64,000 nt of DNA from Pegea sp. RAD2-039 (Eukaryota > Chordata > Thaliacea > Salpida > Salpidae): contig JAQGEQ010000206.1 in the NCBI GenBank assembly GCA_034620365.1, forward strand, positions 248,001 to 312,000, read 5' to 3'. The position numbers and the translations under genes were made by a program. A model generated the notes under the pieces. That model did not search any database and was not told the DNA's origin. It saw only the letters and a list, made by a program, of their open reading frames with translations. This document shows, piece by piece, positions 6,212-52,835 of the stretch. Each line of letters opens with the position of its first letter. The stretch's first letter is position 1.

Positions 6212-9200
6212 ATGATGGAAAAAGCTACAAAAAACATTTCCGAAACCACCCACGTGAACCAACCATCTAATGAGAAAAATAGAAATTCTTCGATAAGAAA
6301 ATCGAACAACGTATTAGCTATTGAAGTGAACGGTTTGTCAATTCAATCTGTTTCTCTTTTCAACTTTAAATTAACTTTTAAACTTATTGTGAAAATTATT
6401 CTTCATTTTTTTTGTAAAACGAAAAAAATCAAATTTCTTTGTAGATAATGAACAGGACCTTGACCCTTATTCTATGTTTGAGGTGATAAGATCTGTTGTC
6501 TTGAACAGTTTTTAACATTTTTCGTTTTCTTCTTCTAAAAATAGGTTGAAAATCAGATCTGTGACATTTTATACATCCGGATAATTGAAGGAAGAAACAT
6601 TACGAAAGGAAGTGTTTCAGACTTTCGTAAGTTCATAATAAATTTTCAATGATATCATCTTTTTCTAATAATCTTATGTCTTGAATATAAACAAACAGTT
6701 GACACTCCTGATCCGTTTGTGGAGGTGAAAATTAAAGAAGCTTCAGATGCTGTGAAAAGAACAACTTGTATTTCAAATGAAGTTAATCCTAAATGGAACG
6801 AAACTTTGAAGTTCTTTCTTCCCCATGCCAATAACAGTCCAACTATTGCTAAAGTAAACAACTTAAAGAGATAATTGACGAGCTGACATAATTTACTTTG
6901 TTACTCGATTGTTAGATAAATTATCTAATTATTTTACGTTGAATTAAATTTGATTTTATAACATCTAAGAATATATAGAAAATAATTTAATGATTAATTA
7001 AAATATTTTAAATTATTTCTTCAAACTTTAAGTTATTTAAAATTGGCATTCAAGCTAATAGAATGATGTTGAAAAAAACTATAAACTAAATCATTAAACT
7101 TCCCACTAAACTTGATTTGTTTGTCTTCAGTTACAACTAATGGACGCAAATTATACAATAGATGAAAAGATAGATATTGTAGAATTTGATTTGAATGAAG
7201 TTAGTGTTGGCGATACAATTGAAAAAACTTTTATTTTCAAAAATGTAAGTAAGAAAAGGTTAGCTTAATTTTTATATTTAATGATTATTAGAAATATTTT
7301 GTAAATTCTTATTTTAAAATAGTTTAACTTCGAGATTTTAAATCATTTTATTTCTAATATTTCTTTACTAATATCCAGAACGCAGAAGTCGTCATCGAAT
7401 TTAAAAGAGAAATAAAGTAAGTCTCTGAATTTGTTGCCTCCTAATTTTTTAAATGTCTTCATCTTTAACTCAGCCATGATTACAACCTGAGATACAGTCT
7501 AACTCTTTGCAACGACGAAAAAGAATTTCGCGCTAAACGTCGGCTTCAAGTTCATTCAAAGCTAAAAGACCTCCTTAAAGAAAATGCCCCAGTAAATCTT
7601 CGAGACACACCTACAATAGCAATAATGGGGTCTGGTGGAGGTTATCGAGCCCTTGTAGGGTTTTCTGGGGCGATTAAAGGTCTTGAAGAGATAGGAGTCT
7701 TTGATTGTGCAACTTATGCAGTCGGTTTATCTGGATCCACATGGTAAATAGACCTAAATATTTAATTGATGTAAATTTATTTACTTTTTAAGGTTTCTTT
7801 CATCTCTTTATTCTCATAAATCATTCCCAGAACAAGGTATGAATGAAGCAATCAAAGAAACAAGACACAATATGAGTCGGAATTTTCTTACGTTTTTGAA
7901 ACCTTCTAGTATTTACAGATACATGTAAACTGATTTAAGTCTTCATCAACACAAGCAGCTAACAATTTGTTTTTAAATCTAGAAAAAATATTAAAAATAA
8001 AAGACAATCAGGCCAACCAGTAACCTTCACTGACTTCTTCGGTTTACTTGTCGGAGAACATTTGTTAGGTTCAGAGGTAGGTGTGTCTCAATCAAACATC
8101 AGCGAGTCTCAGAGTTACTCTTTCAGCGAATGGATGAAGCTAGATTATCTGATTTTTCAGTGAAAGTAAAAGATGCAAGCATTCCACTGCCTATTATGAC
8201 ATGCTTGCATGTTCAACCTGATGTTTCTGCAATGGTTTATCACGGTTTGTATTTTTGTCATCTGTACCTTCTGAACATAAAATATTTGCACAAATTTTAG
8301 TTTGAAGCTGATCTAGCTGAATTAGAGCGGTTTTACTTAGCGATTAATTCTCCATTCTTATTATTTACAATAATCTTTTGTAGCTCTTTCCAGCAGTCTA
8401 AACATTGTTAGCATAGGAGACATATTTTTTGCATTCTTAAAAAGCAAACGATTTTATGAATCATTTTTCTTTTGTTGAATAATGACCGTCTGCTGAACTG
8501 TCTAGAGCTTCGAATTCGTAATAAAAGTAAATTTGATTTTATTACTCAGTAATAAAGCAACAAAATCAATCAGAAGTTTATCGGAGTTAATTTAGATCTT
8601 TATTTAAATCAACTTTTTAGCAAGAAGATCAATCTAAAAGTCACTAATCGTACATATAACTCTTCAGACTAAAAGTGATTAGAATTTGTACAGCTGTGTA
8701 CTTCGAAGAACTTATTATTCTTTTTGAACACAAACGAGCTTCGAACTTTTTGAAAGCTTTATTTTTAACGCCTGAAAAAAGCTATAAATAGTCAACTTTA
8801 TTATCCAAATATACAAATGTTGTTTTCGCTTGATGTACAAGTGTTTGCTTCTAGAGAGTTTTTGTGTTGAAACATGATGCTTGTTTACTAATTTAATCAC
8901 AAGTTAAACTGTAGAATGGATGGAGTTCACACCATATGAGATCGGTATGGCGAAATATGGGGTCTTTGTTCGAACCTCAGACTTTAACAACAAATTTTTT
9001 ATGGGAGTCATTTCAAAATATTACCCAGAAGCTCCGTTGCATTTCTTAATGGTAAATTTATTTCCTAGTTTCAGACCTTAACAGATGAAGTGTCCTAAGA
9101 TAAATTTAAGAAAACTAGAAATATTTTATCAGTAAAAACTAACCAGGGTAATCATTTAGGGTGTTTGGGGGTCTGCTTTTTCAATCTTATTCAATCGACT

Positions 9201-10596
9201 TGTCGTTAAAAATGACAAATCAGCTGAACAAGAAAACAAGAAAGATCTAGAAGCAAATTTCACGAAACTACGGAATAGTAACTTCACAGGTAACAACAAA
9301 CTACAAATTCATCGAATAATTTACTGAATTATAAACTTCCAGGCAACAAACCTGATGATGAAGAAAGTGATGAGGAAGATAACTTGACTGATCTAGACTT
9401 ATCAGAACATGAAAATGAGAAGAAAGCGATTGAGAAAGCTGAAAAGGAGTAAGGGCCTCTTGTGTCGTGTGACATATTTCCTTATATGGTCATTACAGAA
9501 AACCCAGCATCATTCAGAGCATCAAAAATTTTTTCGGATTTGGACCAAAGCCAGCGGAAGTGACAGAAGAAGACGAGAAATCGAATTCTTTCAGCAACTA
9601 CATCATCAACTCGCTCATGAAAACCAAATTTTTTGCGGTTGGTTTAAAATATTTTACTATTTCAATCAATGACGTCATAAATTGGTACAGAGTCGCGAAT
9701 ACAGGGCTGGAAAGATTTTGAATTTCATGCGCGGTCTAGAGACTTCTTGTGTCTATCCCATCTCACCTTTTACTGAAAATAAGTCACGTGAGTAGCTTCA
9801 GCTTCTCCTTCTATTTATAAAATATTTTTATCTTTTTAATAGATCCTGAAGAAAAAACTTTCAGTCAATTGAATAAAACCATATCAGGCAAGAAGAAAAA
9901 GGTCTTTATCGTGGACGCCGGACTCACTTTCAACTCTCCTTATCCGGCGATACTAAGACCTCAACGAGCAGTCAACCTCATCCTTTCATTTGACTTTAGT
10001 GCGAGAGAGGCTGATAATAGTAATCCTTTTGCGGTACGAGATCTCGATCTTTATCAGTAAATTGATCTTTGTGATCTTAGGAGTTGTTGCTGGCGGAGAA
10101 GTGGGCTCGGATACATCACATTCCTTTTCCTAAGATTAGAGAAGATATATTTGAGAAAGAAGGTCTTAAGGAGCTCTATGTTTTTAAGGATGAAGATGAC
10201 ATCAATTCTCCAATTATACTTCATTTTTGTCTTTGCAACGTTCAATTTCGCAAGTTTTCAGCTCCAGGTAAGTGTCTGCCTCATCTGGGACCTCATTTGC
10301 TGAAATTGGGATGCAGGGGTGAAAAGGGTGGACGATGACACCAGTGGTGATTTCGACATCTTTGAGGAAGAGACACCTTACTCAACATTTGACTTTCATT
10401 ACAAAGAAGAAGAGTTTACTAAATTACATGAACTGATCAAATTCAATACTCTTCTTAACAAACATGTGAGAAAAATCGTCCAATCAACAGTTTTTAATTC
10501 TATTTTTTCCAGGAAATTTTGGAAGCGATTAAGGATTGTGTAAGATTGAAAAAAAAGGAAAAAGTTTTTAATAGAATTAAAGCAAACGGCCATTAG
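6212..10596 (+). CDS. Cytosolic phospholipase A2 (PLA2G4A type), tandem copy 1
   Basis: Hand-spliced exons: 6212-6332, 6445-6482, 6545-6626, 6699-6853, 7131-7244, 7379-7416, 7474-7743, 7793-7924, 7983-8076, 8127-8244, 8915-9051, 9160-9289, 9343-9448, 9499-9637, 9691-9787, 9843-10033, 10081-10267, 10317-10465, 10513-10596. All junctions stay in frame, giving 793 residues. The enzyme releases arachidonate from membrane phospholipid sn-2 positions. Exons 2-5 encode a C2 domain with the Ca2+-ligand pattern (DTPDPF, NPKWNE, MDANY). The catalytic part has the oxyanion/Arg loop GSGGGYRA, the nucleophile motif GLSGSTW and the catalytic Asp in IVDAGLTFN. PISP in exon 15 matches the human Ser505 MAPK-site context. 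Exon 13 is an acidic linker. The C-terminus is about 30 residues shorter than in copy 2. Intron 10 (8245-8914) is the only long one. The exon 1/2 junction is the least certain. Confidence 0.93.
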
Positions 10597-31650: not shown

Positions 31651-34600
31651 ATGGAAGAAAACATTGTTGTAATTTATCAGGCTAATTATGAAGACAAGGA
31701 TATTATGAAAAAATTAGATAATTTGGGCAATAGTTTATCAACAGCAGTTAATTCAAGTAAATCTTTTTATTTATTTATTTACAAATATTTTTAGGTGAAT
31801 TTAGTTTTTTAAATTAAGCTCAAAAATTTGATTATTCTAATTTATTTAGATAATTAATCAGGTAATGTATGTAAATATCTACTTGAGTATTTATGAATCA
31901 TCTAAATTTAATACTTGTTGGATCTTATATAGATTCTTATCAAATTCTAAAAAAATGTTGTTTACTTTTTAGCGTTTGATAGAGTGAATTTTCAGAAGTG
32001 GAATAGCGTAAAAGTTACTTTTAAAACTAAAAAAGAAGCAGTTGAAAAGTTGAAAGCTCTGGTTTCAACTGATCAAAGTTCTTTAATTGAATTGGGAATT
32101 TTACAAATAAAAATTGGAAGTAAGTTTACTTAAAAGTTTATGAAATTATACAATTAATTTAATTAATCTTGGCATTTTAGTTGGTTGAAGAAATAAAGAT
32201 TCTTATATATTTAATTAAACAAATTTTTCTTTTAATATTTATTGATATTTTTATTCCTCAATTTTAGATGAAGTTATAGACTTGACTAATCCTGAATCTA
32301 ACTTCAGTATGCAAGGTAATTAGAGAAAACAATATTCCTAATTTATTATTATTATTCCAAATTATTTTTTATAATTACTAAAAACAAAAGTTGATTTGTG
32401 ACAAGTAACCATAGATTGAAATTTATTTTTCTTGCAGCACATAAATAATATCTAAAAATAATTTAAACTTCCTGTTCTAAATTTAGATTATATTTCAATT
32501 AAAGCTTGATAACTAAAACAGCAAATTTTTATTGACTTTTTAAAAGCAAATTTCTTCACATAACATCAACATCATATTTTTAGCTGGGAATCAAACCTCA
32601 TCAACTGGCTCGCCACAATCTCTTAATCAAAGAAAGCGAATAAGGAAAAGATCAAAAGATAAACCACCAGTTGATAGACAAGTAAAAGTTCCAAAAAAGC
32701 AAGAGAACGTTGTAGTCTCTCAGCAATATCACCAACAGCAACATGCTCCACCGCCAGACTTGAATATTAATATGAGAAGCAACAGCGGAGACCCCTGGTT
32801 TTCAGTTCCACAAACTCCCCAACCATCGACTCCTCTTTCTCCTGATGTAGATCAAATCATGTCAGAGATATGTACACCAGAAACTAACCAACAGCAGCAA
32901 CAGGGGAACCCTGAAGATGATTTAATGTCTGTGCAACTACAAAGCTTCCACAGTGGTCAGAATCTATCAACAAGCTCTGATACAATGATTGATCAGTTTT
33001 TTGGAGTTGATCAGTTTGATTTCGACATACAAACCAGCAACTCTTTGAAACAGCAGAACAATCTTCGAGAGGTTCCGAATCCGACCACCTTAGCCGACCC
33101 GAATCATGTGTTTCGAAGTCCTCAACAACCTGCTGCGTCTCATTTCATCACTGACAACTCAGGTGAGAGCAATATGAAGTTAATTGGAAATATTCGTTGA
33201 GAGGTTTTTGGTAAAGTTGATTTTTGCTGACTGTTCACAGAAATTTTCTGTTTCAAATTTAAACAGTGAAAAATAGTCTCATTAATCAACTAATTTATTG
33301 TCATTTGATATTTTCTTTTCAATCTTTATGCTTCAACCATCTAACAGAAAAATTGTTTTTTTAGCAGCTTTCAACCAGAATACTTTCAACTCTGTTCAAA
33401 ACTTCCAAATGAAAAAACCCATTCAACAACCACAATACATCACCCAGAACAGTGAACAGCTCCTACGACAAAACGATCCACAAATCAAACTGGCAACCAA
33501 TCAAAACGCTGCAGTGTTACGACAACAAGTAACAAATGGGACCTCATCTCATGAAGTCCAACGTATCAATTGGAATAATCAAGATATGAACAAGCAATTC
33601 CACAACATGCATCACACAGTAAACAACTCTAACGCTTCCTTTGTCCTCAACCAACAACAACAGCAACAGATTGTTGGAGGAGTTGACAGCTTAAACACAC
33701 TACAAAGAAATCACATCCAACAACAACAACTGTTCCAAGATAACAATAACAACCAACAAGCGTATAAACAACAACTACAAGCGATTGATAAACGATCTAA
33801 CCCACAACAACCACAACACGGAATGTCAGTAGTCAGTCCGTTACTCGTTGATCTGTTACGTAATGAGACTGATAACCCTAGTAACGTTCTACCTGCGATG
33901 CCTGTGCCGTCACCTGGTTCCAACCCAGCTAAACCTAAACGGAAGCGAACTCAACGTAAGAAGAAGGTAGTGAAAGGCTCGGCAACTCCTGTGCTAGCTG
34001 AGACGATACTGACTTCTCAAACACCTCAACAACAATCAGTTATGAAGAATTATCCGCAAAATATGCAACATAACTACCCACAACAACAACAACAACAGCA
34101 GTTTGTACATGCCGTGTACCAACCGTCCCAACAAATGTTAATTACTCAACAACCATCTCAAGTTGGTCCAAATCGAATGTTGGTTTCTCAGCAAGGTAGG
34201 AATCCAATTCAACAGAATACGATGGTTACTACAGATGACTTCAAACAAAATATGGATATGAAGCAAACAAATATGGTTATTACTTCAGATGTGGGTCAAC
34301 AATTTACAATCCCACAACAACAAGCTATTAATCAGAATGAAATGATGGCTAATCAGCCTGTCCAGCAACAAATTTGTGGTCCAACCACCCCTGGTACTTA
34401 CGACCCATACCGTCAACAACCACCAACTCCATTACCAACAGCAGATGGTCAGCAACAACAGTTTCAAAACAATTATTTCGCAAATCAACAACAGTTGTTG
34501 AATGTCAATAAAACAAAGCAAGGTTTTATCAACAACCAAATGGTCCCAAATATCAACAACAACAACAGTAGCTTACTGCCGCCACCTAGTGTTGGAGGTG

Positions 34601-36255
34601 ATGACATAAAAAATCATCAAATCTACAGCTCACTAGGAGCTGCTAAAAAGAGTCATATGATTCCTAGCATTAGTTGGAAGCCTACAGGCGCCGTAAAACC
34701 ATCGGAGTTTTCCACTGGAAAGTGTAGTATCACACGGAAGGAAAAATGTAAACCTTCAACAAAGGTGTACGATATAAAAATCTGTCTTAACCAACAGCTG
34801 GATAGTATAAGAAGCCAGCTCCAGCTTCGTTCTAATCAGCATAAGAAGTTAAAAAATATACAAACTAAAAACAACCAACAAAATAAAGCCAAGTCAAAAG
34901 CTGCTTCTATCAATCAGAAGAAACAACAACATTTATATCAACAAGTTACTTCTAAAGAACCTCAGCAAGCTATTTATCAACAAAATCAAGCTCACAATCT
35001 ACAACAACGACAAATACTTCAACTACCTGCTATGCAACAACATGGTATACATCAACAAAGAGTTCTACAACAACCTAGTATGTCAACTCAACAACAACTA
35101 GTTCATTCAATCCCACCTACTCCTCATCAAATGAAACAACATCTACAACCTCAATTAGCTCAACAGAACGCTCAACATTATTCAAAATCGATACAACAGA
35201 AGCAACAAACGTATATACCTCGTCACCAAATGCATATACAACGTCAGTTGATGATGAAACAACAAATGATTCAACAACAACAACAGCAACAAACTTGTGT
35301 TCAACAAGCAGTTCAACAACAACAACAACGACCCAATAGTCGTCAACCATATATAACATCTCTTTCTCCAATGCAAGATCGTATGTCGGCCACTCCAAGC
35401 CCAAACTTATCTATCCATCAAGGACCTCAGTTAATCCATTCCTACTCACAGTCAAGATCTCCAATGCCACATCACAACCAGAAATCGAATCTAAATGTAG
35501 GCCCTCAAGTGGTTCAAATGCGCCAACAGCAGAATCTACTCCGTCAACCTCTAACTAATGAAATAAAGCAACGAACGATAGTTGGAACCAAGATACCTAC
35601 CAATATCAATTCGTTCCCTGGTAACAACCAGCAAGCAAACGTACCATTTAATCATCCAGCTGGTGTTAGTATGCAGCCTCAGCAGCAGTGGAACTCTTTG
35701 TATGGAGTTAGTCATTACCATAGAAACCAACAGCAACAAGCACAACAGCAATTAAAAACCTTTTCAACTAATCAAACACAATACTTTAATAAACCACAAA
35801 CTCCAGTTCACCAGCAACCAGTTCACCAACAGCAGCAACCAGTTCACCAACAACAACCAGTTCACCAACAGCAGCAACCAGTTCACCAACAGCAGCAAGC
35901 AGTTCACCAACAACAGCAACCAGTTCACCAACAACAACAACAACCAGTTCACCAACAGCAGCAACCAGTTCACCAACAACAGCAACCAGTTCACCAACAG
36001 CAACAACCAGTTCAACAGCAACAACCTGTGCATCAACAGCAACAAGTACAACAGCAACAACAACCAGTTCAACAGCAACAACAGCCAGGTCACCAACAAC
36101 AACAACCAGTACAACAGCAAGCAACACAACAGCAGATATCAGTCATGAACACCCAATTTACAGAAGTCACCTCAACAACCAACCCAGCAGTCTCATCACC
36201 ATTTCCTTCAACCATATCAACAACTGGTTCCAGTATCAACCAGACAACAGGCTAA
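31651..36255 (+). CDS. NCOA6: NCOA6-type nuclear receptor coactivator (glutamine-rich)
   Basis: Exons 31651-31756, 31973-32119, 32268-32315, 32584-33162, 33368-36255; in frame for 1255 residues (human NCOA6 is about 2060). NCOA6 is the scaffold of the ASCOM (MLL3/4) H3K4 methyltransferase complex and binds nuclear receptors. Two blocks support the call. Exon 2 reads WNSVKVTFKTKKEA then LGILQIKI, matching the conserved N-terminal domain of NCOA6. In the last exon, VVSPLLVDLLRNE followed about 30 residues later by KRKRTQRKKKV mirrors the human LxxLL nuclear-receptor box (SPLLVNLLQ) and its basic tail. The rest is low-complexity Gln/Asn/Pro/Ser sequence ending in VHQQQQP repeats. The terminal human Ser-rich half is not recognised, so the gene is shorter or has unseen downstream exons. 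Antisense poly-Leu/Val frames are artefacts of the CAA/CAG repeats. Confidence 0.85.
35806..36120 (+). repeat. Coding minisatellite encoding about 16 V(H/Q)QQQQP units in NCOA6
   Basis: Units of about 18-24 bases (gttcaccaacagcagcaacca type) run in tandem and encode Val-His-Gln(2-5)-Pro heptads; later units change His to Gln. CAA and CAG are mixed, so it is not a pure trinucleotide tract. Units differ in the number of Gln codons, implying recurrent unequal exchange or slippage. It lies in the last NCOA6 exon, 135 bases before the stop. Confidence 0.9.
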
Positions 36256-37154: not shown

Positions 37155-37363
37155 GTTTTCTATCTAAGTTTAATCCAATAGCATTTACTTCTGAAGCGAC
37201 CACAAGGGTAGTCTTATTTCGAAAATATGCTTTTCGCGATCGAAGTATGACGTCATCTAGCGCGATGTCTCGTACCTTTGAAGATGAGATGGAATTCAAA
37301 CCACCTGGTGCAGAGCGCAATAGATTAGAAACCAAATCTTCAAACCACTTGACTATCTTTTAA
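37155..37363 (+). other. Candidate terminal exon, unknown gene
   Basis: After an acceptor-like ggactatag, an open frame of 68 codons runs to a TAA at 37361. It contains TSEATTRVVLFRKYAFRDRS, and later RTFEDEMEFKPPG and ERNRLETKSS. The composition is mixed and hydrophilic, CpG-bearing and unlike the A/T-driven chance frames around it. It also contains a TGACGTCA octamer at 37248, read as Met-Thr-Ser. It could be an alternative last exon of the NCOA6 transcription unit or part of another gene. I could not identify the upstream donor or the family. The opposite strand is also open over part of the region (37135-37335), which weakens the call. Confidence 0.35.
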
Positions 37364-39163: not shown

Positions 39164-42100
39164 CTAAGAAATCGAAAAAGTTGACTTTGTGGCAACTGAT
39201 ACTCCATTCATACTTTCTTTATAGGCTTCTGCTGCTTTTTCATGGTCTCCTTTTTGATAGCTACAATTAAATGAAGTCAATCAACTATCAAAATATGTTT
39301 GATAACTAACAGCAAAAGTGCAATGTTGCGAAGAGTCTGAACAACTTGATGACTTGCATCACCATAAAACCTCCGATAAATCTTTAATGCTCTTCGATAA
39401 AGAGGTAATGCAACATCTAAACTCCCATTCTCACTTTCACATACGGCTTGATTCAACTGAAACAACTTTTATCAACATCTATATCTACATCCTGAGATTA
39501 ACGGCACCAGGGCATTGGCTAACTCTGGTGTCTCCTCTTCACTCTTCTGATGTTGTATCTTGACAACCTCTGAGTACAGTTCCGAAGCTCTGACCAAGTC
39601 CTTGTTCTTCTTACACAACAGGGCCAGGCTCTTCAACGCTGCTAATACTGTGACGTCACTACCTCCTAAAGTTTGCCTAAGTAAAAATCAAGTCTTAAGA
39701 GCTTAAGATGAAGAGAGAAGACAAGGACACCTAATAGAGAGCGCACGTTCCATGTAGAGGACAGCAGAAGCAAGTTTGTTCTGTTCGGCGTGAACTAGTG
39801 ATAAATTGTAGTAACTTTGTGATAATTCAAAATCTTTTTCATCTAAAAGTTCTTCTCTCATCTTTAAAGAGCGAAGAAAAAAGTCTTCGGCTGTTCTGGA
39901 AAGATGACGTCACAGAAATTCGAAATGATTTTGAAACTTACTTAAAGTTGTTTTGTAAATGATTAACAACTCCCAAATCATTGAGGACTTTTGCAACTTC
40001 CAACGAGTCTTCATCTAGAGTGAGACCTTCCAAACTAAAAGTCTTTCTTCTCAATCGTTCAAAACTCCTCTGAAATTATCCACAACATCCACAAAGAACC
40101 TCCGAGATCAGATCTCTTACCGCATTTAACGAAGGACTTCTTCTGTAAATCTTCATCATTCTTGAATGCAAACTTCCCAGATCTTTGCCACTTTTTCGAT
40201 TGATCCTAATGATTGAAGAGATCTCTTGGGCCACACGATAGTGGTACTGACCGGCAACTCCTTCCACTAACTCCAAAGCTTGTCTGTTGGTCATCAACCA
40301 CTGGTCACTAACCACTGACAACTATTAGGTGTACCTGAACAAGGGCTGGGCGGTGCTAGGTTTGCCCCATTGAACATAAACACACGCAAGGTGATGTAGA
40401 GAGTCTGCAACATCCGGATGATCTGGATCTAAATGAGTCTCGCTGATCTCTAAGGACTTCTGCATCGATGAAACTGCCTGTAACGTCAAAATCAAGATTA
40501 GCGCGCATTGAGAGGTATTTAATCAAGGGCACCTCTTCAATAAGACCCAGTTCAGATTGGAACCTCCCAAGTGATAAGAACATGTTGGAAACCTTCCTCA
40601 TCCCCACATCATCTTCTTCTTTACTCACGATCTTCGATTCTAATTTCTTTAGTTCGTCATGGTAACGGCTTCCACTGGTCAGTTTGTCCTCATTCAAATA
40701 GTCCAACAGGGCCACAAGTTCACTCACTCTGCCTCTAAAGTCACCATTTTAAGGTTGAGGATCATGGTCAAGCCCTGGTACCTAGTGTGCATGTGATGGA
40801 GTAATTTTGGCGAATAAATAATTTCGAATAATCCGTCGCGGTCGTCTAGTTGATGTAGTAACCATGGTAACGTATGGATGTTGCGCGGAGTAAAGATGTT
40901 ACAACTGGATCTTATTTGAGAGATCATTTTCAGATGACATCTTCGTTTGTGAGTCTCGTTGCTGACGTAGAATTCATAGATGACGTCAGAGACCTACAAC
41001 GATCCAATCAAGGAAGAACAAATTGATGATGTGATCATTTACCTGGGAGTTATGTGCTTTATAAAATCCTGCATCTTCTTTCAGAACGAACAAGTGAAGC
41101 AACTTGTTCAGATGACTAAACCATCGTGCGTTTGTCAGTTGTGACGTCAAAAACAAGAATAGTTCCTTCTCTGACAAACCGTCACGTGAGCAAGCAACAA
41201 ACTGATGAAGAAATTGATGAAGAGTTGATGACGTCACTTCAGTGCTTACCTGTAAGATGGATTTCAATTGGTTTCGATGTTCTCGATTTTCAGATCGCGC
41301 TTCGATTTCGCGTAGCGTCACTCGATACAATTCGATGACGTCACGAGTTTTGAGTGCTGCAGACCAAACAGCCTCAGAAACCTGGTTGGTGGACACACTG
41401 TCGAAAGAAGAAGATAACCAGAAGTTATAAGAAGAACGGGAACCAACCAGAGCGCGAGACGAGAAAGAAGTTTGCTATAAAGTGGATCATAAGTGGAAGC
41501 GTCGCGACACTGCGCTGTGACGTCATCACGCTACAACAATAACAACTATGAAAATTAAGTGGTACTGGGACATGCATACCATTTGTGGTGGTAATTGTTG
41601 GACCAGTTGTCGGACAGAAGCAGCTGAAAAAGGTTCTAAATGGAGAGTGGGCCAATGTTGCCAGACTTCTGGACAGTTGTCACTGGTCACTGAAATCACG
41701 ACCCTTACACCAACATGAAGGGGGTCTAGTAACCACTGAAAGTGGATAGGTGCGTCCTATAGGACAACACTAGTCAAGTGACATCATTGATGACGTCATC
41801 AGAAGTGACCTTGACGAGATGCAAGGAGTCGATGACCATGACAACGCGATTATTCAATCTCGCTGACAACTGCTCCAACCACCTCGGGAAGTTCTCGCGT
41901 AATCTTGTGACGTCATAGCTAGCATATGAGCGAAGAGGTGGAAGCGATCCTAGAGGTAGACGATCAACTAGTTGTGAGAGGAGACGTCTGAAGATCAAAA
42001 AGTGAAAGATCAAAAGATGTAGTAAGATCAAATCTCACCGGAAGATGATTACGGGTTGAACATCGAGAGATCCTGTTCCTGTCACGTGATGCTGAAGCAC

Positions 42101-44486
42101 TATGACGTCAGAGCGGTTTTCTCGAAGCTTGTGTACCCAGCTGTAACCAATTTGCATGATGACGTCATCAGTGGTTACGTCATAAGTGACCTCGATAGCA
42201 GCAGTGTCTTCCCGGATGCGTTTCCTCCGGACACTAGGAGCGGAGGAACAGGTCCTGGTGACGTCACTATCTCATCGAGACGATCGTAGCACTACAGAAA
42301 GTAGGTTGAAGTAGTGACGTCACGTGTTGATGACGTCACCTTCTCGAATCCGAGAGGCGGTGAAGAGCGGAACTGAAACGCGATCTTCTCTTGCTGCATC
42401 TCAAGAGTTTCATCAATTGGGATCTCCTGGATACATCGGATCACTTCTTCTTCTTCTTTCTTGATTTTGTTCTTCTCTATTGAAATGCGGAATGCAAATT
42501 TCTACAGATGAGAGGATTGGTAATAAGATGAGGAAGAAGTCAGGGAGTCAGGACTCACGAGTCGGATGGATTTGATGATCTGAGAGATGAGAAAGTGATC
42601 CGGAGGTAGATCAGAGGAGAAGTCAAAATACTGCTTGACTTGACTCTTCATCTCAACCTGCATCTTTTTTGCTCCAGAGTTAATCTGTGAAGGCTGAGCA
42701 GAAGAAGATCAGAAGAAGATCAGAAGAAAGGAGTCAGTTATCTGATGTAAGGACCTGTTTGCAGCATAAGAAGCTTGAGATGTTGTTGGAAGGTTCTGTG
42801 ATTCCCTGATTACATTCAGCAGCTGTGAAGCTGAAAAAAGATATTGGGAGTTAATTAAAGATGCAAGGAGTGAAAGAGCCACCTTCCAAATTTGGTGCCC
42901 AGAAAGCAGATGAAGATGTCGGATATAGAAATAGAAAATCTGATGTCTCTTTCAGTATTCTTCAGTTTTAAGTCGCTGACATCTTTTGTACGAATACGAT
43001 CATAGGAAGTTGATCCTTTAGAAGATCTCAGTTTGAAGCAAATAAAAGAAGATGAAAAGAAGTACCAATAAAATGAGAGATGATTAAAAAACGATCTTCC
43101 ATTTCACACAGATCTTCAAGATCTTTAATCATTGGATTGCTTAAGAAGCTCTTTGCATCATTGATACAATCAGGAGATGAAGAAATATAAATCCTAAAAA
43201 CTCTTTCAGTAACAATGATAACAACAAAGAGTGCTTCACCTCAATAAGTTGCTCTCTTCTATTTCAAAGACATTAGAAGCAGGTAATATCTCAGACAAGT
43301 TGTTCGATGACGTCATCCACTTCTCACTAGATAGTGACGTTGTATCAGCGATGTCTTTGGAGGTTTTCTACAGAAGAGTTTGAGTAGATGAAGATAATTG
43401 TAATAAAATCACTGACTTGTGAACTATCATTAAAATGTATCATCGATGACTCGAAAAGAGATGCTGCTTCACTTTCAGGAGCAGCCCACCATTCAGCTAG
43501 AGGAGACGTTGATCCAACTATAAGTGGATTAAAAAGATGATAAGAGATGAGATGAGTTAAAGCCACTCACAGTTAAGGAGTGAATTATCGACATTTTGAA
43601 AGTTATGGTCATCCACCATCACTATTCCCTGAGCTTCAAGGCGATGAAAGTTACTCTCTAGCTGTCTCTTAGTCTAAAGAAGATGTTTTGAATAAAAAAG
43701 AGAGATTATGTAGCATCACCTGTAGTATAGCTTGAATTTCACTTTCTTTAGTTTCCCGGAATATTTTAAATTGTCTTTGTATTTTCTCTCTGTTCTAAAA
43801 ACAAATTTATATAAATTTGTCTCAAAAACTTTTTTGTTAAATCAAACTAACTTGTTCTAAGGCAAAAGCTCTTTCAGCAGCTTCGTGGCTGTTAGCAAGA
43901 GCGAGGTCTCTCTCACTACGAAGTCTTTGGCACTGTTTGTTGAGAGCTTGTAGTTCTGCACGTAATCTTTGGTTTTCTGTTTCTAATTTTTCTTCCTAAT
44001 AAAAGAAGAATTAAGAGGAAGCTAATAGAAAGATGAAATCACTTTTCTTTTCAGATTTTGTATCTCTTGTTCCAAAGTGACTTTTTGTGTTTTAAAATCT
44101 TGACGTAAATTTTGATCATTTAAATTACCACCGTTTATTGAAGGTGATAAAATGTTAGGATCAAAAGACCCTGATGATCTTAAACTGGCAGATTTTTTCA
44201 CACTTCCCTCTAGATGCTAAAAAATTGATATTTTCACTGAATTTCATGAAAGTTTTATAATATTCTTAAATGAACTTTTTAATAAAATAGATTAAGTATA
44301 AAAATTAGTTTATTAGGATATAAATAGACATTTCAAAACCTTTGGACGAAGCTTTAATTGGTTAAATATTGATGGTTGGCTGATATTTCTTTTCATTGAG
44401 CGTTGATTAGCTGAAGGAGCTTCATCAGCAATATTCATTTCAATATTATCATCTTTATTTCTAGCTACAGAGCCTGTTGTTCCCAT
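39164..44486 (-). CDS. NPHP3: Nephrocystin-3 (ciliary inversin-compartment protein)
   Basis: I spliced 28 exons from 44486 down to 39164; all 27 junctions are in frame, giving 1280 residues (human about 1330). Order: N-myristoylation start MGTTGSV (human MGTASS); coiled coil with [12 protein letters not shown] and [15 protein letters not shown]; a divergent middle region; a P-loop NTPase with [14 protein letters not shown] (about 515-528) and Walker B-like VVMVIDS after [12 protein letters not shown]; the WLLDPL[13 protein letters not shown] segment; then C-terminal TPRs from about residue 945, including [20 protein letters not shown] and [12 protein letters not shown]. Sample exons: 44340-44486, 43852-43995, 42191-42291, 41810-41987, 40335-40477, 39311-39456, 39164-39260. 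NPHP3 is known to be targeted to the proximal cilium through myristate and UNC119. ODAD1 lies directly upstream on the same strand. Introns are 40-75 bases. Confidence 0.95.
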
Positions 44487-45507
44487 TTTTTTTATAATTT
44501 AAAATATAATTTCTACACCTGAAAGAAGAAAATACATTTGTTATGCAGAATTTGGTTTTGATTATAAACATTTTTTATCGCGAGGTAAACAGTATGAATA
44601 AACAGATTTTTTTGAATCCTATATTCTTTAATATTTTCTAAAAATGTGACAAAGGAAAACAAACACAATTTGGCGTTATGCAAATATGTTTTGGTTTAAA
44701 ATTTGATTTGACCTTATTTGAATCTGTATCAAGCATTTAATTGTAAAAATAACTATATTTACAATTATTTGACAATAAATTTTCATTCAAAGAAGTAAAT
44801 TTTACCTTTTTAAAGCAAATGTTTAGTTACGTTTTGTTTAAAGTATTTCTTATTTAGAATAAATCTGTAAATAAAGCTGTTAGTATAAATTTTCTAATAC
44901 TTAAGCAGGTGTCAAAATAATAAAGAAGTTCAAATAAAAATACTCAGACTTATGTAGTATCTAATTATTTCGATTTTATAAACTAAAATTCGTTGAAATA
45001 AAATCGCTTAAGGTTGAAGTTGATGCTTTCTAAACTTCTATATTTCATACAAAAATTTCTAGTTTTGTAATTTTCTAATTCCTATCGTTTCTAGTAGAAT
45101 AATTTTTGTTCTTTATGTTTAGAAACTTTAAAAAGCCTTATAAATGTGAAACTTTTACCACTTTTAAATCTAAAAATATTCCTTGTGCCAGAGTAAACTA
45201 CACTAATTAAATATAACAGCTATTGAAGAATAGTTTTAAGTTTTTGCAAGTTTTATATGCGCCAGCAGTATATTTTGAATGCTTATAAACATCATTAACA
45301 GTAATTACAATTAAACTTTGACATATTTAAATCTTTGAGTAAATTTTAACAGCGGTTTATTAAGATATTTGATTTTTGAAAAAAGTTTTATTGATAAAAA
45401 TATTTCAGATGTTCAATGGCGATAAACGATTTTATAAAGATTGATTTGAAAGTAGTTTACAAAATATACATCTTAATCAATTTCTTTCAAATAAAGATGA
45501 TCGATTT
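44487..45507. other. Intergenic region between NPHP3 start and ODAD1 stop
   Basis: About 1 kb, A/T-rich. On the minus strand an acceptor-like ctttcag ends 32 bases before the NPHP3 ATG, so a 5' UTR intron or trans-splice site is possible. No gene or clear promoter motif is visible. Confidence 0.6.
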
Positions 45508-47740
45508 TTATCGTCGTTTTATTTGAGTGGTAGCTGTGACGTCATATCGACTTTGACCATGACTTTTCGAGGCTTCTGCTTCTTTCTTCTCGACCTGAAA
45601 GTCAAAAAAGTTGACAAATCGTTCACTAAGAGACATCTTAAACATACAGAAGCAAGGACTTTCATTTTAAGCTCTTCAGAAGTCAGTGGATGAAGTTGCT
45701 CATGCTCTTCATCATCATCTAAATCAGGATCTCTATCAGATGGATCAAATCCCGTTGATGGAGGATCCACAGTCAAACGACCAACAACCTCCTCCTCGGG
45801 AACCTTACCCACCATTTTCCGAGCAGTTTCATACGGATCGTAAGACTCAAAGTTTTGCTGAAAGATACATGTCAGTGATGACGTCACTGATATATGACGT
45901 CATCATCACCTGTGAATCGACGTAAGCGCTCGATAGAATCAGTTGATTGGCTCTTTGCTCTATTAACCCGAGAAACATCATGACGTTGTCATCATCAACT
46001 TGAACACCTTCACCAAGCTGTTGCTTCTGATGACGTGATATCAACTCATCCTGATCCGCGCTGCTCCCTATAATCTTATGGAAGAGTGATCCAGCAGCAA
46101 GTTGTAATTGACCAAGGATCTTCCCGACTCTCATCAAGACCTTCTCACTTGCTTCTACATCCTTTTCCACTTGCTCTAACTCTTCCTCCATTTCTTTTAC
46201 AAGCTTCAACCGACTCTCTTGCATCTTCACATCTTCATCTTTGTACTCTTTGATATTTGCATGTATCTGTAATCAGATCATTTGATGACGTCACATCCGC
46301 GCATGCGTCGCGCACCAACCACTCGAATTTCTTCGCCGAGCTGTTCAATGGAGTTGTTCTGTTCATTGACGAGATTGAAGAGCGCGAAGTTTAGATCTTC
46401 GACGCGAATGAAATTGGTCACGACTTCGTTGACGTCATCTTTTCCGCTACAATCGACGATGGCGCTAAAGGCGCGTTCAAAATCGTCAATTTTCTCGTCT
46501 CCTTCTCGCTGTGTTTCCTTCTCTGTCATGACAACGACAATACTGATGACATCATCGCTATGATGACGTCACTAACCCTTCTTTGTTGCGTGATAGGTGA
46601 TAGTTCGGGTGACTTCTTTCGCTCTCATAAACTCGCGGCGTTTTTTGTCGTCATCAATAATCCGCTGCAGCTCCTATATATATAATCTTGTTCGATGATG
46701 ACATCACGTGATGACGTCATTGACTGACTCGAATATCGCCGTTAAAGAGCTGAATATCTTTTTCGCATTTATCTTTCAGTAAAAACATTTTGTTATGAGA
46801 CTCATCACGTGCTTCATACGCAGCGGTCGATGCTTCGGTGACGCGCGCTACTTCTTTTTTCAAATCTTTCAATGCCTGTTTCGACAAGTTGCAAATTATC
46901 GCGACGCGTCACTATGACGTCACCTTTTCGTTTCGTCGAAATTTGGACAAGTAGTTTGATTTATCGATGCGTAAGTTTTCGATGACGTCACGCTTCTTGT
47001 TGTTTTCAGCACAGATTTTGTTGAACTTTTCAGTAGCCTGATTATTATGAATATTAAATCACGTGATGATGACATCATAGCAACCAGTTACCAAGTGAAG
47101 CCGATTGTCAAGCGTTTTACGCAGCTTATCGGTATCTTTGATGAAATTAGAAATCTTTTCTTCACCTCCAATTTTCTTCTTCTCCGAATGAATTTTTTCG
47201 AGAAGATATTTAATCTCTGATTCGATCCTCATCTTCTTCTGCATCTCTTCATCAATTTGATCCGACAGCAGCTCTGTTACACCAACCACGGCATCAACTA
47301 GCAAGACCAGGGACACTTAGTGGACACACTTGCCTCTTTCATCGATTAAATCTTCAATCTTCTTCTGATGACACTCATCTCTTTTTTGATTCTGATCACT
47401 TTCAGCTAGAAACAATTCTTTTTCCATTTCAACTCTTTCAGACTTCAACAGATCAATTTCTCGTCTAAAGTGAAAAGATGAAGATGTTACAACTGATTTA
47501 TGAAATGAATAGCAACAGACAGCTGTCTTCTTATCTGTTCCTGTGATTCAACAGTGTAATCATGTCTATCGACTTCCATAATCCGATATTTCTCTTTAAG
47601 ATTTTTCAGTTCCAAAGCTGTAAAAGTGCAAAATGTAGGACTGAGAATCCAGAAGTTGAAATCTTACTTGAAGTCTCCATATCTGCATCACTCGCATCCG
47701 AGCGAATAGAATTCAAGTTACGAAAAGAATTTCTTCTCAT
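45508..47740 (-). CDS. ODAD1: Outer dynein arm docking complex protein, ODAD1/CCDC114-CCDC63 family
   Basis: Exons (minus): 47668-47740, 47521-47617, 47334-47464, 47092-47273, 46924-47037, 46729-46875, 46577-46673, 46323-46522, 45910-46266, 45648-45857, 45508-45594; in frame for 564 residues. The family anchors outer dynein arms to doublet microtubules of motile cilia. The protein is almost entirely coiled coil. Diagnostic segments are KYRIMEVDRHDYTVESQEQI near the N-terminus, FIRVEDLNFALFNLVNEQNN in the middle, DDDNVMMFLGLIEQRANQL, and an acidic tail with HPLTSEELK followed by KEAEASKSH. ODAD1 and CCDC63 are close paralogues in vertebrates, so ODAD1 is used for the family as a whole. Intron 3 must use a GC donor (AGAG|gcaagt) to keep frame. 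Its neighbour NPHP3 is also a cilium gene. Confidence 0.9.
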
Positions 47741-49120
47741 TTTGATAAAACTACTCAAAGTATCTCAATCCTAAAAAATTTTCTTAATTTTAAAATGAAG
47801 TTTATTTTTTGCAAAAATTTAATTAAAGTTGGGAAGATACTTTCAAAGATTATTTCATTAAGATAAACAAATCTCAATGTTTGTTGATATAACTTTACTA
47901 TTTGTCTATTTTTTTCCAAGTAATTTATATAAACTTAATCAAGTAAGATATCAGCAACTTATGAATTAATCTCAGAGTCCAAAGATTTTCTTGATATTCC
48001 TAAAATAATTAAACTTGCTTATAAAGTTTTTAAATAAATCTAAACATCAGATTCTAATTAAATATGAAAATTCGAGTTATATTGATATCATTCTAGTTTA
48101 GACATATCTAAAAGTAAATTTAAGTATTATATTTTGCTTATCAATTATATCTCATCAAAAACTTATTTCAGATTAAATTTCAAAATTTTCATTTTTTTAC
48201 ATAATTATTCACAAAATATATTTCTGGAGCTAGATAAAACAACATTTTCATTTACAAAGTAAAATTTTTATTATTCTAATGATTTAATGAAAACCATAAA
48301 AAGAAATCGAAAAATACTAAAAAGTTTAGTGAAATCGCGTTTAAGTGTAAGTACACATATTCCATGACAACAAAAAGATATTTAAATCTAGCTGTTATAC
48401 AATTTTTGATTTGCTGTTTGCTGGATCGTCTTATTTCAAATTTTGTTTTAAAAACTTTTGATTTATGCCAACATTTAAACTAAAAAGTGTAAAAAAAAAT
48501 TAACTGCAAAGAGCTTCGAGACAAACGTTTTTAAACCACTAAGGTAAGCTCAGAAACAAATGATCGATATATAAGTTTGTTGCAATTAAAAGTAATTAGA
48601 AATTTTTAATAAATAGAACTGAATATGATAAAATCGTCTCAATGAATATTTAAATCTTCAAATTTTTCCCTTGCAAAATTATCAGCATGAAAACTATATT
48701 TTCACTAATAGATCTTTTCAAAGTGATGTTCTAATTAGCTAATTATCAAGAGTAAAAGATTATAAGTTTTGTTGAAAGATATACGGAAACAGACTGCCAA
48801 CTAATTTTCTATTTAAGACTTAAATGTTGGCTCAGTTTTGACAACTGGCTCGACTATCAACTTATTACGTTGTCAAGGAAACAATGACTTTATCACGAGC
48901 TCAATTGTTTCAAATTTAAGTTTCTTTACAAACGACAAATTTTTTATTAGATTTTATTTAACAAGTTTCTCACGATTTAGTGACGTCATAAGAAGATCAT
49001 TGAGACCAAAGAACAATTGATAAGCGCAAACTTGATTATACAAAACTATGACGTCACCAGCGCAAGAAACACCCGAAGTTTTTACAAGAACTGGTTGAGT
49101 ATGACGTCATAGAATGAAGA
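47741..49120. other. Intergenic region between ODAD1 start and ELMO stop
   Basis: About 1.4 kb. The ODAD1-proximal half is A/T-rich, with an acceptor-like ttttttag 30 bases before the ODAD1 ATG. The ELMO-proximal 150 bases carry three TGACGTCA octamers (48981, 49049, 49102) and probably include ELMO 3' UTR. The plus-strand 60-codon frame at 48838-49020 has no recognisable motif. Confidence 0.6.
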
Positions 49121-51397
49121 TCAAAAAGCAGCGAGAGCAAAGTTGTAGTCAGTGGGAAGAGGAGGAAGACGAGGAGGTGATTCTGGAATGGGAATATTTT
49201 CGAGTTCTAAGAGTTGAAGTTTCATCTCCAAGTTAGTGATTCGGTCAATATCCAGTTGAAATTGACGGCTGTTGAAAGTGCGGCCCATCAAGGCATTAAT
49301 ACCATCTGTCCACATATTCCAGACCAATTCAGTTGGCGCCACAAAATGTAAGACTTCATCTGGGTCGTAGGATAAGCTGAAGATCAGATGATGGGGCGCT
49401 TTTTGATTGGATCTCGCGTTTTTGAAGTGTTGATTGTTTTTACCAGTGGCCATTTCTTTGATGTTTGCAACTGCAAGGGTGTGAGGAAGGACTGTTGTTT
49501 GGGATGGTTCTATGTTGTCCTCAATATCACCATACTGTAAATATTTACCATCGGGAGACAAACGACAAAGCCAAGGGGTCTTATCTCGTCTCTTGCTACC
49601 CAATTTGTGGAAAACAGACCCATGTTTGAGATAATTCAATCTTTGTTGCTTGATGAGATTAGTGATTGATGGAAGCAGGCGATCACGAAGCTCGATTACT
49701 GGTTTAGCTTTCAAATAAATATCATCTTGATCTACTAATTGTTGCTCGCGTTTTTTCAAGATAGCGTTGTATTTAGGCAGCTTCTGTCGAAAAGTATCCA
49801 TATTCTGAGGGTTCATGTTTAAACTACTTTTTATCTGATCGCAAACCACTCCGAGCACTTTGTCAAAGTCTTCACGAATTGCGTTCATTTCTTTCCATGT
49901 CTTGTTGAAGAGAATGATGCAGATACAAAAGAGCTCTTCGACAGCGCGATCGTGAGCGAAGAGCAGCGGGAAGAATTGTTGCCCAGCCTCATCAGGAGGT
50001 TCTCCAATGCGCAAGACATCACAGATAGCGTTAGTGACGTAGATAGCGGATTTGACAAACGGGCAGTTGTGTTTTGTCTCACGTGAGTTGTTCTCGAGAA
50101 CTAACTTGTTAAAGTTGTCTTGTTGGGTTCGAGCAAAATACAACATAAAACTCAAACCCAAATGTCCGTTCGGATTAAAGTCCTGAATAGGATCAGCTAG
50201 ATTTGTGAATCCTAATTTATCTAAATCCACGGCAGTTAGATTTCCTCCTTTTTTGTGGTCTTGATTCAAAGGTTCTTCAGCAAGTGAACAAAACTCTGAT
50301 AGATCTTTGAGCTCCGAAGCTCCAGCTTGCTTGATTTCTTTCCCATCAGCTAATAAGTTAAGTGAAAGAACTTGAAGTACATAAAGTTGATGGGCCATCT
50401 CATCGCTTACATGATTGCTACCTCTAATTACATTATTCATAATTAAATTCCGAAACTGCTTCTGGGTCATTGCATCTGAAATCTGACGGCGTCCAGATAG
50501 CTTCGCGCGATTTGAAGGGGCTTTCATGAACAAGCTGTTAATTAATGCCATTGTGCTTACTTGTACTTCCATTTCTGGGGTCTGAATATGCGTCATCACG
50601 TTACCAACCACAATGACGTCACTAATAATAGTGTATAAGTGGTCGCTATTGACAACAGCAAGCTCAAGAATTCCAAGTGCGCATTGAAGTGTCATCTGGC
50701 TACTGCTTGATTTAATTTCTGTTTGTTGACAAACATAACGAATAAAACCATCAGTTAGCACAGGTGATAAATCATGTGGATGATGATAAATCAACTCGAG
50801 CACCGCCTTTAACATAAACCCCACATCTTTCTGGGGCAACTTTTTACTCTCAACTTGTGCGACTAAAAATTTCAATCCATTTTTTGAAATGAAAATATCA
50901 GCAAAAGTTGGATCTGATGATTCTTTAATAAGTTCTTGAATAGCTAAGTCTCTTTTGTTGCTGGGTTGGTCGGGTTTTAAACTTTTGATGATGTCAGTGG
51001 CCACTTTTAGAGGTGCTATGACAAGACGAAGCATGTTCCCATCTTTCATTTTAGTTCGATTGGCTTCGGTGATGTATAAGCACTCTTTAGTATCTAAATT
51101 TTTTAACGCATACTGCCCTACAGGCACTTTCATTCGCAAGCAGAAATCATCTATATTTTTTTGAAGAGTCCAATCCTGATTAAAGACATACAGAGTCTTA
51201 TGAGCTTGATTAGGGATCTCAATTCCAACTTTCAGGACATTTTTAGGATTTGAAGTTGACTGATTATCAATTGTATTGATTTGAATACCTCCAAACTTTT
51301 CATCGGAAAATGAGAGGCGATTTACACTTCCAGCAGTCAACTGGTCAATATATGGACCCACAGCTGACATACTAGCCGATGATGTGACACGGCTCAT
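49121..51397 (-). CDS. ELMO family engulfment and cell motility protein, intronless
   Basis: A single uninterrupted frame of 758 residues (human ELMO1 is 727). ELMO binds DOCK-family exchange factors to activate Rac in engulfment and migration, and is autoinhibited until bound by RhoG/Arl4. An N-terminal extension of about 50 residues, unlike human ELMO, precedes the Ras-binding-like/armadillo region (KECLYITEANRTKMKDG). The central block EMAHQLYVLQVLSLNLL, then the ELMO domain with VLENNSRETKHNCPF and FCICIILFNKTWKEM, is followed by a PH domain (WLCRLSPDGKYLQYGD to VWNMWTDGINALMGR). It ends in a Pro-rich SH3 ligand (IPESPPRLPPLP), the DOCK contact. I place the start at the ATG of MSRVT (51397); the preceding TTG is not a start. 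An acceptor-like cctaag ends 13 bases upstream. One TGACGTCA lies inside the frame. ELMO1/2/3 identity cannot be assigned. Confidence 0.95.
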   Translation of the reverse strand: MSRVTSSASMSAVGPYIDQLTAGSVNRLSFSDEKFGGIQINTIDNQSTSNPKNVLKVGIEIPNQAHKTLYVFNQDWTLQKNIDDFCLRMKVPVGQYALKNLDTKECLYITEANRTKMKDGNMLRLVIAPLKVATDIIKSLKPDQPSNKRDLAIQELIKESSDPTFADIFISKNGLKFLVAQVESKKLPQKDVGFMLKAVLELIYHHPHDLSPVLTDGFIRYVCQQTEIKSSSSQMTLQCALGILELAVVNSDHLYTIISDVIVVGNVMTHIQTPEMEVQVSTMALINSLFMKAPSNRAKLSGRRQISDAMTQKQFRNLIMNNVIRGSNHVSDEMAHQLYVLQVLSLNLLADGKEIKQAGASELKDLSEFCSLAEEPLNQDHKKGGNLTAVDLDKLGFTNLADPIQDFNPNGHLGLSFMLYFARTQQDNFNKLVLENNSRETKHNCPFVKSAIYVTNAICDVLRIGEPPDEAGQQFFPLLFAHDRAVEELFCICIILFNKTWKEMNAIREDFDKVLGVVCDQIKSSLNMNPQNMDTFRQKLPKYNAILKKREQQLVDQDDIYLKAKPVIELRDRLLPSITNLIKQQRLNYLKHGSVFHKLGSKRRDKTPWLCRLSPDGKYLQYGDIEDNIEPSQTTVLPHTLAVANIKEMATGKNNQHFKNARSNQKAPHHLIFSLSYDPDEVLHFVAPTELVWNMWTDGINALMGRTFNSRQFQLDIDRITNLEMKLQLLELENIPIPESPPRLPPLPTDYNFALAAF

Positions 51398-52835
51398 CAA
51401 GAGGAAGGTCCTTAGGTTATTTTGATGATAAAAAAGTTGACAAAAATCTCTTTAGATAGGAAAGGTAGATAAAAATCTGAGAGATTAAATAAATTAAAAA
51501 TGATTAGTTTAAATCTTTCTGAATTTATTTTAAACTAAATAAAATAATCTTTATTTATTATATTTACTATCGTAATAATTTTTCTATAAAGTTTGTATAA
51601 TAAATTCTGTATGAAATAATTTAAATAAAAGGAAAATAAATTATTTATCTTTAGATAAAAATTTATTTATCTATTTGAATAAAATATCACTAAAAGTATT
51701 TATGAAATACAAAAAAATTAATATAAAAAGATAAAAATTTATACAATGAATAAAAATTTATTTAAAGAAGTATTTATCAAGTTAGATAAAAAAACTACCA
51801 ATTATAAATATTTATTTATAAACTAAATGATATAAAAATAATACTTAAAATCAAAATATTAACTTCAAATAAAAATTTCAAACTAAGTTAAATCTTTAAC
51901 AAGGCTGTTTAGAAATATAGAAAATACAAAAAACTTTTGAATAATATTTGGACAAACAAAATTTGTCTACTTCCTTTTCTGAGGTCATTTCTTAAACAAT
52001 TTTTAGATTAAATCATTTCTCATTTCAGTTAATCAAAGAAAGCAAAGTGTAAATAGAATAAAATGGGTTTTCTACAAGTTCACGTCAACTATAATTTTTA
52101 TAATTGAAATCGGAATTTGCCATGAAATAGTTAATTTTTTAATGACCTTCTCCTTTGGAAGAATGAAAAATGAAAATTTCCACTAGTAACTAAAATTTTA
52201 AGAAAATAAAATATTTCTCATAAAAAAGTGTTATATAAAAATTCGTAACATTATTCCAAAAGTTTCGTGAAACAAAACATTTCTGTTAGAGCTTGAAAAA
52301 TTAATTTTAAACTTTTTATGATTTATTACTCTCTTAGAATTAGGAAAGTGTTTCTTTGAGAAGCACCATTAAAAGTATTTCAGATTTTCATAACTTTTTA
52401 CCTGAATTTTACAAGTCAAGATGATAAATTAACAGAAACTAGTTTTGCTATTTAATGGCGTTCTAGTGTTTAACCTTAAGTTACACTATAATATCATCTA
52501 CCTTCAAAAACAATTTTTTGTCAGCATATACACCGCCGAAGATATTTTAGACACCATAGCTTATTTACAACCTAAGTTGTTAAGTTTCTGAATGGTCTTT
52601 GGGAACATAAAATAAGTTCCTCGCCATACTAATATTAAAATAGTTAATGGGTCTTATTTTATATTCTGTAAACTTTTAAGCTAAGAATGAAAAAGCCATT
52701 TATTAATTCAGTTATTGTTAAAATAGCAAAACCAACACAACTGACTTTTGATCGTTTTTATAATCTTGTGAGGCAACAAACAAAAATACAAAATAAGTAT
52801 TAAACATATTAAAAGTTTTCTTAAAAATTTAGAAG
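51398..52835. other. AT-rich intergenic region upstream of ELMO
   Basis: About 1.4 kb, very A/T-rich. It presumably contains the ELMO promoter and the 3' flank of the small zinc-finger frame. No specific element can be supported. Confidence 0.6.

Follow-up and report, generated by a model that had tools for sequence, protein, structure and literature searches.

The stretch of DNA considered here is a window of 64,000 nucleotides from the salp Pegea sp. RAD2-039 (assembly GCA_034620365.1, contig JAQGEQ010000206.1, positions 248,001 to 312,000), and the element in question is the palindromic octamer TGACGTCA. The window contains 34 exact copies, 28 of which lie in an island of 10,971 bases at 39651..50621, where 2.9 would be expected at the rate of the whole genome. 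The outlying copies are found at 37248..37255 and at 9670, 17302, 17809, 61137, and 61826; no strand is assigned to any of them or to the island. Both counts are exactly those of an earlier note on this DNA, which had also put the chance expectation below one, and 100 dinucleotide shuffles of the window gave a mean of 0.43 copies and a maximum of 4.

The genes recognised in the island are all encoded on the minus strand. An NPHP3-type exon at 40989..41474 encodes the helical domain (NPHP3_hel, E 8e-7) and carries octamers at 41142, 41229, and 41336. NPHP3-type TPR frames are found at 40356..40993, where the matches to TPR_NPHP3 fall below the curated cut-off; the octamer at 40981, at the edge of one of these frames, is a candidate coding copy. 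An open frame without family match at 41777..42034, perhaps the next upstream NPHP3 exon, holds octamers at 41791 and 41908, and five more (42103, 42160, 42259, 42315, and 42331) follow within 42103..42338. One ODAD1 frame (45850..46272) matches ODAD1_CC (E 2e-6) and has octamers at 45879 and 45895 beyond the domain match. Another (46281..46568) has a coding octamer at 46430 and two, at 46286 and 46564, outside the match. The ELMO gene is a single open frame of 776 amino acids (49124..51451) with a coding octamer at 50614. The earlier note had divided the 28 island copies into 13 exonic, 12 intronic, and 3 intergenic ones; homology places five of them in coding sequence, namely 41142, 41229, and 41336 in NPHP3, 46430 in ODAD1, and 50614 in ELMO.

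Excess and exactness of the octamer

When scored as observed/(expected + 0.5) under a dinucleotide model, TGACGTCA ranks first among the 256 palindromic octamers of the window and among all its octamers. It is the leading palindrome both in the window and in a 200-kb sample of the genome, which consists of 20 stretches of 10 kb taken at regular, not random, places on seven contigs. Window and sample together make up 264 kb with 94 copies. Altogether, 284 kb of DNA beyond the window were examined, from this one genome and with partial gene models. The additional loci were chosen for octamer doublets and are used for anatomy, not for rates; they entered two counts, the table of near-octamer words and the count of Asp-Val pairs.

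In the whole genome (105.7 Mb, 387 contigs) there are 27,792 copies, about 0.26 per kb, and 969 of the reversed word. The sample, whose density matches that of the whole genome, holds 60 copies where 1.33 are expected from a dinucleotide model, and 1.25, 3.45, and 11.0 from Markov models of order 2, 3, and 4. Carried over to the genome, the expectation becomes about 700 copies for the dinucleotide model and about 1,820 for order 3, an excess of 39.5-fold and 15-fold, respectively. Models of order 5 and 6 predict 27 and 33 of the 34 copies in the window because they are trained on fragments of TGACGTCA itself. The earlier note had likened the octamer to a highly iterated palindrome (HIP) and had named a genome-wide Markov count as one way to check this. 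The count bears it out, with an exact palindrome far above low-order expectation throughout the genome.

The excess belongs to the exact word. In window and sample the 94 copies stand against 1.75 expected, and the classes with a single mismatch reach 0.9- to 3.2-fold. Genome-wide, the 24 single-mismatch neighbours number 37,125 against about 23,400 expected, and nearly half of this surplus is supplied by the CpG-transition pair TGACATCA/TGATGTCA (11,070 against about 4,490), as would be expected if copies of TGACGTCA decay by CpG mutation. The specificity also reaches beyond the eight bases. A purine directly precedes the octamer in 91% of the flanks (94 sites, read both ways), and of two words of equal composition, GTGACGTCAC is found 1,438 times in the genome and CTGACGTCAG 93 times. 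The unit is therefore the ten-base RTGACGTCAY (R, purine; Y, pyrimidine). Outside it there is a weaker preference for TGA/TCA, and past three bases the flanks show little preference.

The octamer is accompanied by a second palindrome, the E-box TCACGTGA, which occurs 4,614 times in the genome (its reversal 237 times). Six copies, against 0.43 expected, are found in the window, at 41182..41189, 42082, 46704, 47059, and 50079 in the island and at 9784 outside it, again without strand. When 24 central-CpG palindromes of equal composition are compared, with tandem arrays masked and locus L021 left out, TGACGTCA has 89 copies and TCACGTGA 19, each against 1.6 expected, and the other 22 have 0-5 copies each, at most about 5-fold. 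The half-and-half hybrid TGACGTGA is not clearly enriched (6 against 3.2 expected), and AP-1 sites are not enriched in the same word comparison (0.65-fold). The presence of two homodimer-type sites, with no clear enrichment of their hybrid, suggests two dimeric readers, of the basic leucine zipper (bZIP) and bHLH-ZIP types, more than one enzyme that reads ACGT, and we infer that TGACGTCA and TCACGTGA are enriched as two separate dimer-type sites and not through an ACGT core common to both. Sixteen of the 19 sampled E-boxes lie less than 1 kb from an octamer, a zone that makes up 25% of the sample.

A methylation or repair bias was among the three mechanisms offered in the earlier note. In a form like that proposed for HIP1, a methyltransferase and a mismatch-repair activity would recognise the word (or GACGTC) and direct repair to it, so that copies are made and retained with no function needed. 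HIP sites have been linked to methyltransferases, and a model of methyl-dependent mismatch repair has been put forward for them (PMC4390886). The present genome has 11 C5-methylase matches, several of them in long uninterrupted frames. Both frames that were scanned (L039 and L041) are without introns and carry BAH domains as in DNMT1, which makes CpG methylation likely. Repair of deaminated CpG should, however, deplete TGACATCA and TGATGTCA, and these words are enriched. Furthermore, DNMT1-type enzymes read CpG, not an octamer, the copies are clustered, and a second palindrome is found in the same islands. In spite of the formal likeness to HIP1, an exact palindromic octamer found genome-wide, we consider this mechanism improbable. 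The C5-methylase frames without introns measure about 830-870 amino acids (L039, L040, and L041 on contigs C57 and C249, and also on C32 and C52), with two on C57 that face opposite ways. Beside the frame in L039 a fragment resembling reverse transcriptase was recognised by eye.

Coding copies and the proteins that carry them

Every coding copy is read either as Asp-Val-x or as x-Thr-Ser, and the third frame would give a stop, just as the earlier note had described. In 11 octamer-bearing frames, which were picked for holding octamers, 28 of 40 Asp-Val pairs are encoded by the GACGTC inside the octamer, and in the seven frames with a family match the figure is 20 of 30. In the frames examined the pressure acts on the DNA word and not on the protein, and modest protein change is tolerated. 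Selection at the amino acid level for Asp-Val or Thr-Ser motifs would account for the uniform reading of the coding copies, but it can practically be dismissed. The 12 remaining Asp-Val pairs are close to the 10.4 expected from the Asp and Val content, even though these frames encode Asp more often by GAT. Moreover, 47 of the 94 octamers of window and sample lie in no six-frame open frame of at least 80 amino acids, and the flank preference is symmetric, as for a palindrome.

Five coding copies can be aligned to solved homologues. Four of the alignments are ungapped. In ATG8 the octamer encodes Asp-Asp-Val-Ile where the homologue has Asp-Asn-Val-Leu, and in AP-3 mu Phe-Asp-Val-Thr replaces Phe-Asp-Val-Val. 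The ODAD1 octamer at 46430 reads Asp-Asp-Val-Asn (Glu-Asp-Ile-Asp in the DC2/ODA1 homologue), and the ELMO octamer at 50614 reads Ser-Asp-Val-Ile (Ala-Gln-Glu-Ile in ELMO1). A glycosyltransferase in L012 has one residue fewer at the octamer than its homologue. As inserted residues at the octamer are found in none of the five, the copies probably arose by point substitution in pre-existing sequence. The densest coding case is a 737-codon frame with CFAP65/ASH-type Ig domains and 17 octamers (L026:810-3023). An exclusion of octamers from the protein domains of this frame was considered, but the signal is weak, with two of the 17 in the first 270 residues (binomial p 0.024), and no use is made of it.

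Islands, repeats, and base composition

The island of the window is one of many. In locus L011 there are 20 copies in 10 kb, and in L026, which was chosen for its doublet, 20 in 4 kb; the octamers are strongly clustered, with a variance/mean ratio of 2.75 per kb. The islands are also rich in G+C. The seven 2-kb bins touched by the window island have a G+C content of 0.29-0.44; among the other 25 bins, 18 do not exceed 0.29 and the remaining ones do not exceed 0.39. Kilobases with at least four octamers (n = 7) have a G+C content of 0.395 and a CpG observed/expected ratio of 1.03, compared to 0.282 and 0.63 for those with none (n = 218). Around octamers the G+C content is 0.43 at 8-30 bp and declines to 0.31 at 1.5-3 kb; for control words of equal composition the corresponding values are 0.36 and 0.30. 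Base composition is not the cause of the excess, since all four G+C strata show it, at 17- to 60-fold.

The same result counts against the idea that the number of copies is made by simple base composition or by a dispersed or tandem repeat family, which we hold to be very unlikely even though some octamers do occur in tandem or inverted duplicates (L032, L021, and L029/L030). A single amplified repeat at one locus, named in the earlier note as an outcome that would overturn its claim, is not what was found. A search of the island against the genome gave 203 matches, and all among the matches listed fall on one 34-base stretch of AGAAGAAGATC repeat. Five pairs of doublets with equal or complementary spacers were compared; in four of them the DNA around the doublets shows no detectable similarity, and the fifth is an inverted duplicate. 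The near absence of flank preference beyond three bases agrees with this; the copies do not share homologous flanks, and a minority of them lie in local duplications.

The earlier note had also suggested a recombination signal, and both the G+C hump and the tandem arrays give this suggestion some weight. Octamers bound by bZIP proteins would open meiotic chromatin and attract breaks to the neighbourhood of the site, though not to the site itself, as ade6-M26 does in fission yeast; conversion favouring GC and, which is unusual, the allele with the octamer would then let the word spread in a selfish-like manner. The hump in both G+C and CpG around the octamers fits this scheme, and so do islands near tandem arrays, as 47 of the 60 sampled octamers lie in the seven of 20 sample loci that have a tandem array (period at least 10, more than 100 bp). 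The 25 octamer doublets on 14 contigs whose length is known are found nearer contig ends than expected by chance (Kolmogorov-Smirnov p 0.008; 0.020 after thinning to 23). This effect is confounded, because two of the four contig tips that were read run into tandem arrays, the other two not. No run of three TTAGGG, the one telomere repeat looked for, was seen in the four tips.

Hotspot conversion normally removes the hot allele, which counts against such a drive. A plain GC bias could not pick out one word either, given that the central-CpG palindromes other than the octamer and the E-box reach at most about 5-fold. The M26 precedent is a heptamer resembling the cAMP response element (CRE), and the site is covered by a zone of about 70 bp in which no breaks form. 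According to the same account, other transcription-factor sites inserted at ade6 also make hotspots. It also mentions a TGACGTCA in that gene that is not a hotspot (PMC9775316). Species that lack PRDM9 have been reported to recombine at promoter-like features and CpG islands (PMC5519329). Taken as a whole, we rank a recombination drive as the second explanation, ahead of methylation-linked repair, and as an unlikely though reasonable one.

Long tandem arrays with units of 20-109 bp lie in or beside octamer-rich loci (L011:8539-9077, L017:5266-7029 and 7710-9830, L012:6444-7932, and L029:2589-4022), and one 20-bp unit is common to contigs C1 and C3. Tandem duplications with octamer-bearing units of about 1.3 kb and 1.74 kb are present at L021:3721-10000 and in L032; one of the five copies of the L021 unit has TGACATCA in place of TGACGTCA. 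L029 and L030 on contig C22 form an inverted duplicate about 32 kb apart, and all 12 octamers are common to both halves. The pair was considered as a test of octamer conservation, but its four substitutions in about 2.4 kb outside the array are too few for this. In the window, 42700-42729 is a short run of the 11-bp AGAAGAAGATC repeat, which makes up long arrays in many other parts of the genome. A tie between the window and a GTTGCTAGG minisatellite array was ruled out, the shared stretch being this 11-bp repeat. At 32544-36255 the window has Gln/Asn-rich open frames of 218 and 989 amino acids with a 21-bp tandem repeat; this region is rich in G+C, without octamers, and without a Pfam match.

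Readers of the word and its relation to known systems

TGACGTCA is the core word of the CRE, and the flanks preferred around it are those of a site for the ATF/CREB family. Cognate proteins are encoded, as the genome has 12 bZIP_1 matches, two of them identical, with basic regions that we take, judging by short stretches, to be CREB-, JUN-, FOS/ATF3-, CREB3-, ATF6-, XBP1-, CNC-, C/EBP-, and PAR-like. An ATF6-like basic region lies in a 150-base stretch that is identical at C21:1488155 and C37:190728 (L052 and L053), the latter near the end of its contig, and this identity reflects either an assembly overlap or a recent duplication.

The explanation that we place first, and that we hold only tentatively, is that the copies are bZIP sites of the ATF/CREB type. 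They would have been fixed by a bias for this particular word, and this bias is most likely selection for the occupancy of islands of open chromatin. The octamer would be the core of the ten-base site RTGACGTCAY, of the kind bound by ATF/CREB-family dimers, and the site would have been multiplied about forty-fold over the genome by point substitutions in coding and other sequence. The force behind this may be selection, at many weak sites, for bZIP occupancy of kilobase-sized, open, CpG-retaining islands inside genes, with the bHLH-ZIP E-box TCACGTGA as a companion site. The raised G+C around the sites could then come from low methylation and, perhaps, from GC-biased conversion in open chromatin. 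Selection for occupancy would account for the specificity of the word and for its flank, for the E-box that accompanies it, and for the absence of CpG depletion. Among the three mechanisms of the earlier note it is the CREB/ATF link that gains most, from the RY flank, from the CREB-like and other bZIP genes, and from the second, bHLH-ZIP-type palindrome without a clear hybrid.

Several observations weigh against selection for occupancy. Its weak point is the sheer number of copies: a single reading frame of 2.2 kb can contain as many as 17, far more than ordinary regulatory design would call for. No promoter bias of the octamers has been shown, and the frames of the Asp-Val count were, as said, not a neutral choice. 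At 14 isolated octamers the G+C content does not rise significantly at 30-400 bp (p 0.15), which makes the hump a property of the islands. A preference for the same G+C might by itself bring E-boxes and octamers together. In the stratum with less than 25% G+C the octamer (5 copies against 0.2 expected) is outranked by a different palindrome, TCAGCTGA (7 against 0.4).

A link to ciliary genes was also considered, because the first dense loci held NPHP3, ODAD1, and a CFAP65/ASH-type gene. The count of octamer density by gene class called for in the earlier note was run in a thin form, with one domain per long gene and doublets only, and gave no support for such a preference, which is not a disproof. 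The dynein heavy-chain domain has 28 matches at 16 places in the genome. Thirteen of these places are on contigs covered by the listed doublets (50 of 72, up to contig C107), and none of the 13 is within 10 kb of one. The HYDIN-type places on C39 lie some 50 kb away from a listed doublet, and a dynein gene on C1 near 478 kb has one octamer within 10 kb among the matches listed.

A related possibility is that the word promotes itself. A bZIP site that biases its own transmission, by conversion or repair around the bound DNA, could have spread RTGACGTCAY through genes by substitution and rewritten proteins on its way. We see this as conceivable, with the probabilities rather against it.

HIP1 is found in coding sequence too, coding and non-coding sequence being alike in this respect. 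HIP1 (GCGATCGC) of cyanobacteria is formally the nearest relative of the present word. It is described as one exact, over-represented palindromic octamer whose mechanism is unsettled, with other HIP sequences as palindromic sister words (PMC4390886). The octamer of Pegea shares this form, as the most over-represented palindrome of the sample with a palindromic sister word and with copies in coding sequence, and to that extent the comparison drawn in the earlier note is apt. It differs in being another word, with a CpG/ACGT core and a ten-base RY-flanked unit, in an animal-type genome, and no methyltransferase of matching specificity is known for it. The comparison fails for the distribution, as the present copies are clustered in GC-rich islands, which HIP1 is not known to be. 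Because the genes are of animal type (CREB- and JUN-like, ELMO, and AP-3 mu) and the lineage is not cyanobacterial, the case works like a HIP but is not counted as one.

Judged as a binding site, the word is an ordinary CRE, and the novelty lies in how many copies there are and where they stand. The core word is identical, the flank preference is shared, and CREB-like and other bZIP genes are present, but ordinary CREs are mainly promoter sites, while here there are about 0.26 copies per kb, many in coding frames. The vertebrate CpG-island promoters with CRE and E-box are likewise GC-rich, CpG-retaining islands of kilobase size that contain a CpG-bearing CRE and TCACGTGA. The present islands, unlike those, reach internal exons, and one word may be repeated in them up to about 20 times within a few kilobases. 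At ade6-M26 the motif ATGACGT is read by the Atf1-Pcr1 bZIP dimer, is active within coding sequence, and is linked to gene conversion; that account tells of one point mutation that gave one hotspot, and not of a genome-wide multiplication of the word (PMC9775316). In Pegea the GC hump would at most be an indirect sign of such a hotspot.

No report of a comparable animal palindrome was found among the papers listed by the literature searches, which took in few subscription papers. If the word does promote itself, it would, as far as these searches reach, be the first example of a highly iterated palindrome in the nuclear genome of an animal. A transcription-factor site in forty-fold excess, coding exons included, would mean one of two things: selection for occupancy is able to remodel a whole genome together with its proteins, or a site can spread by its own drive. 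Either reading would provide an animal model for the long-standing puzzle of HIP1. For protein comparisons in this lineage it would mean that an excess of Asp-Val and Thr-Ser partly reports a pressure on the DNA.

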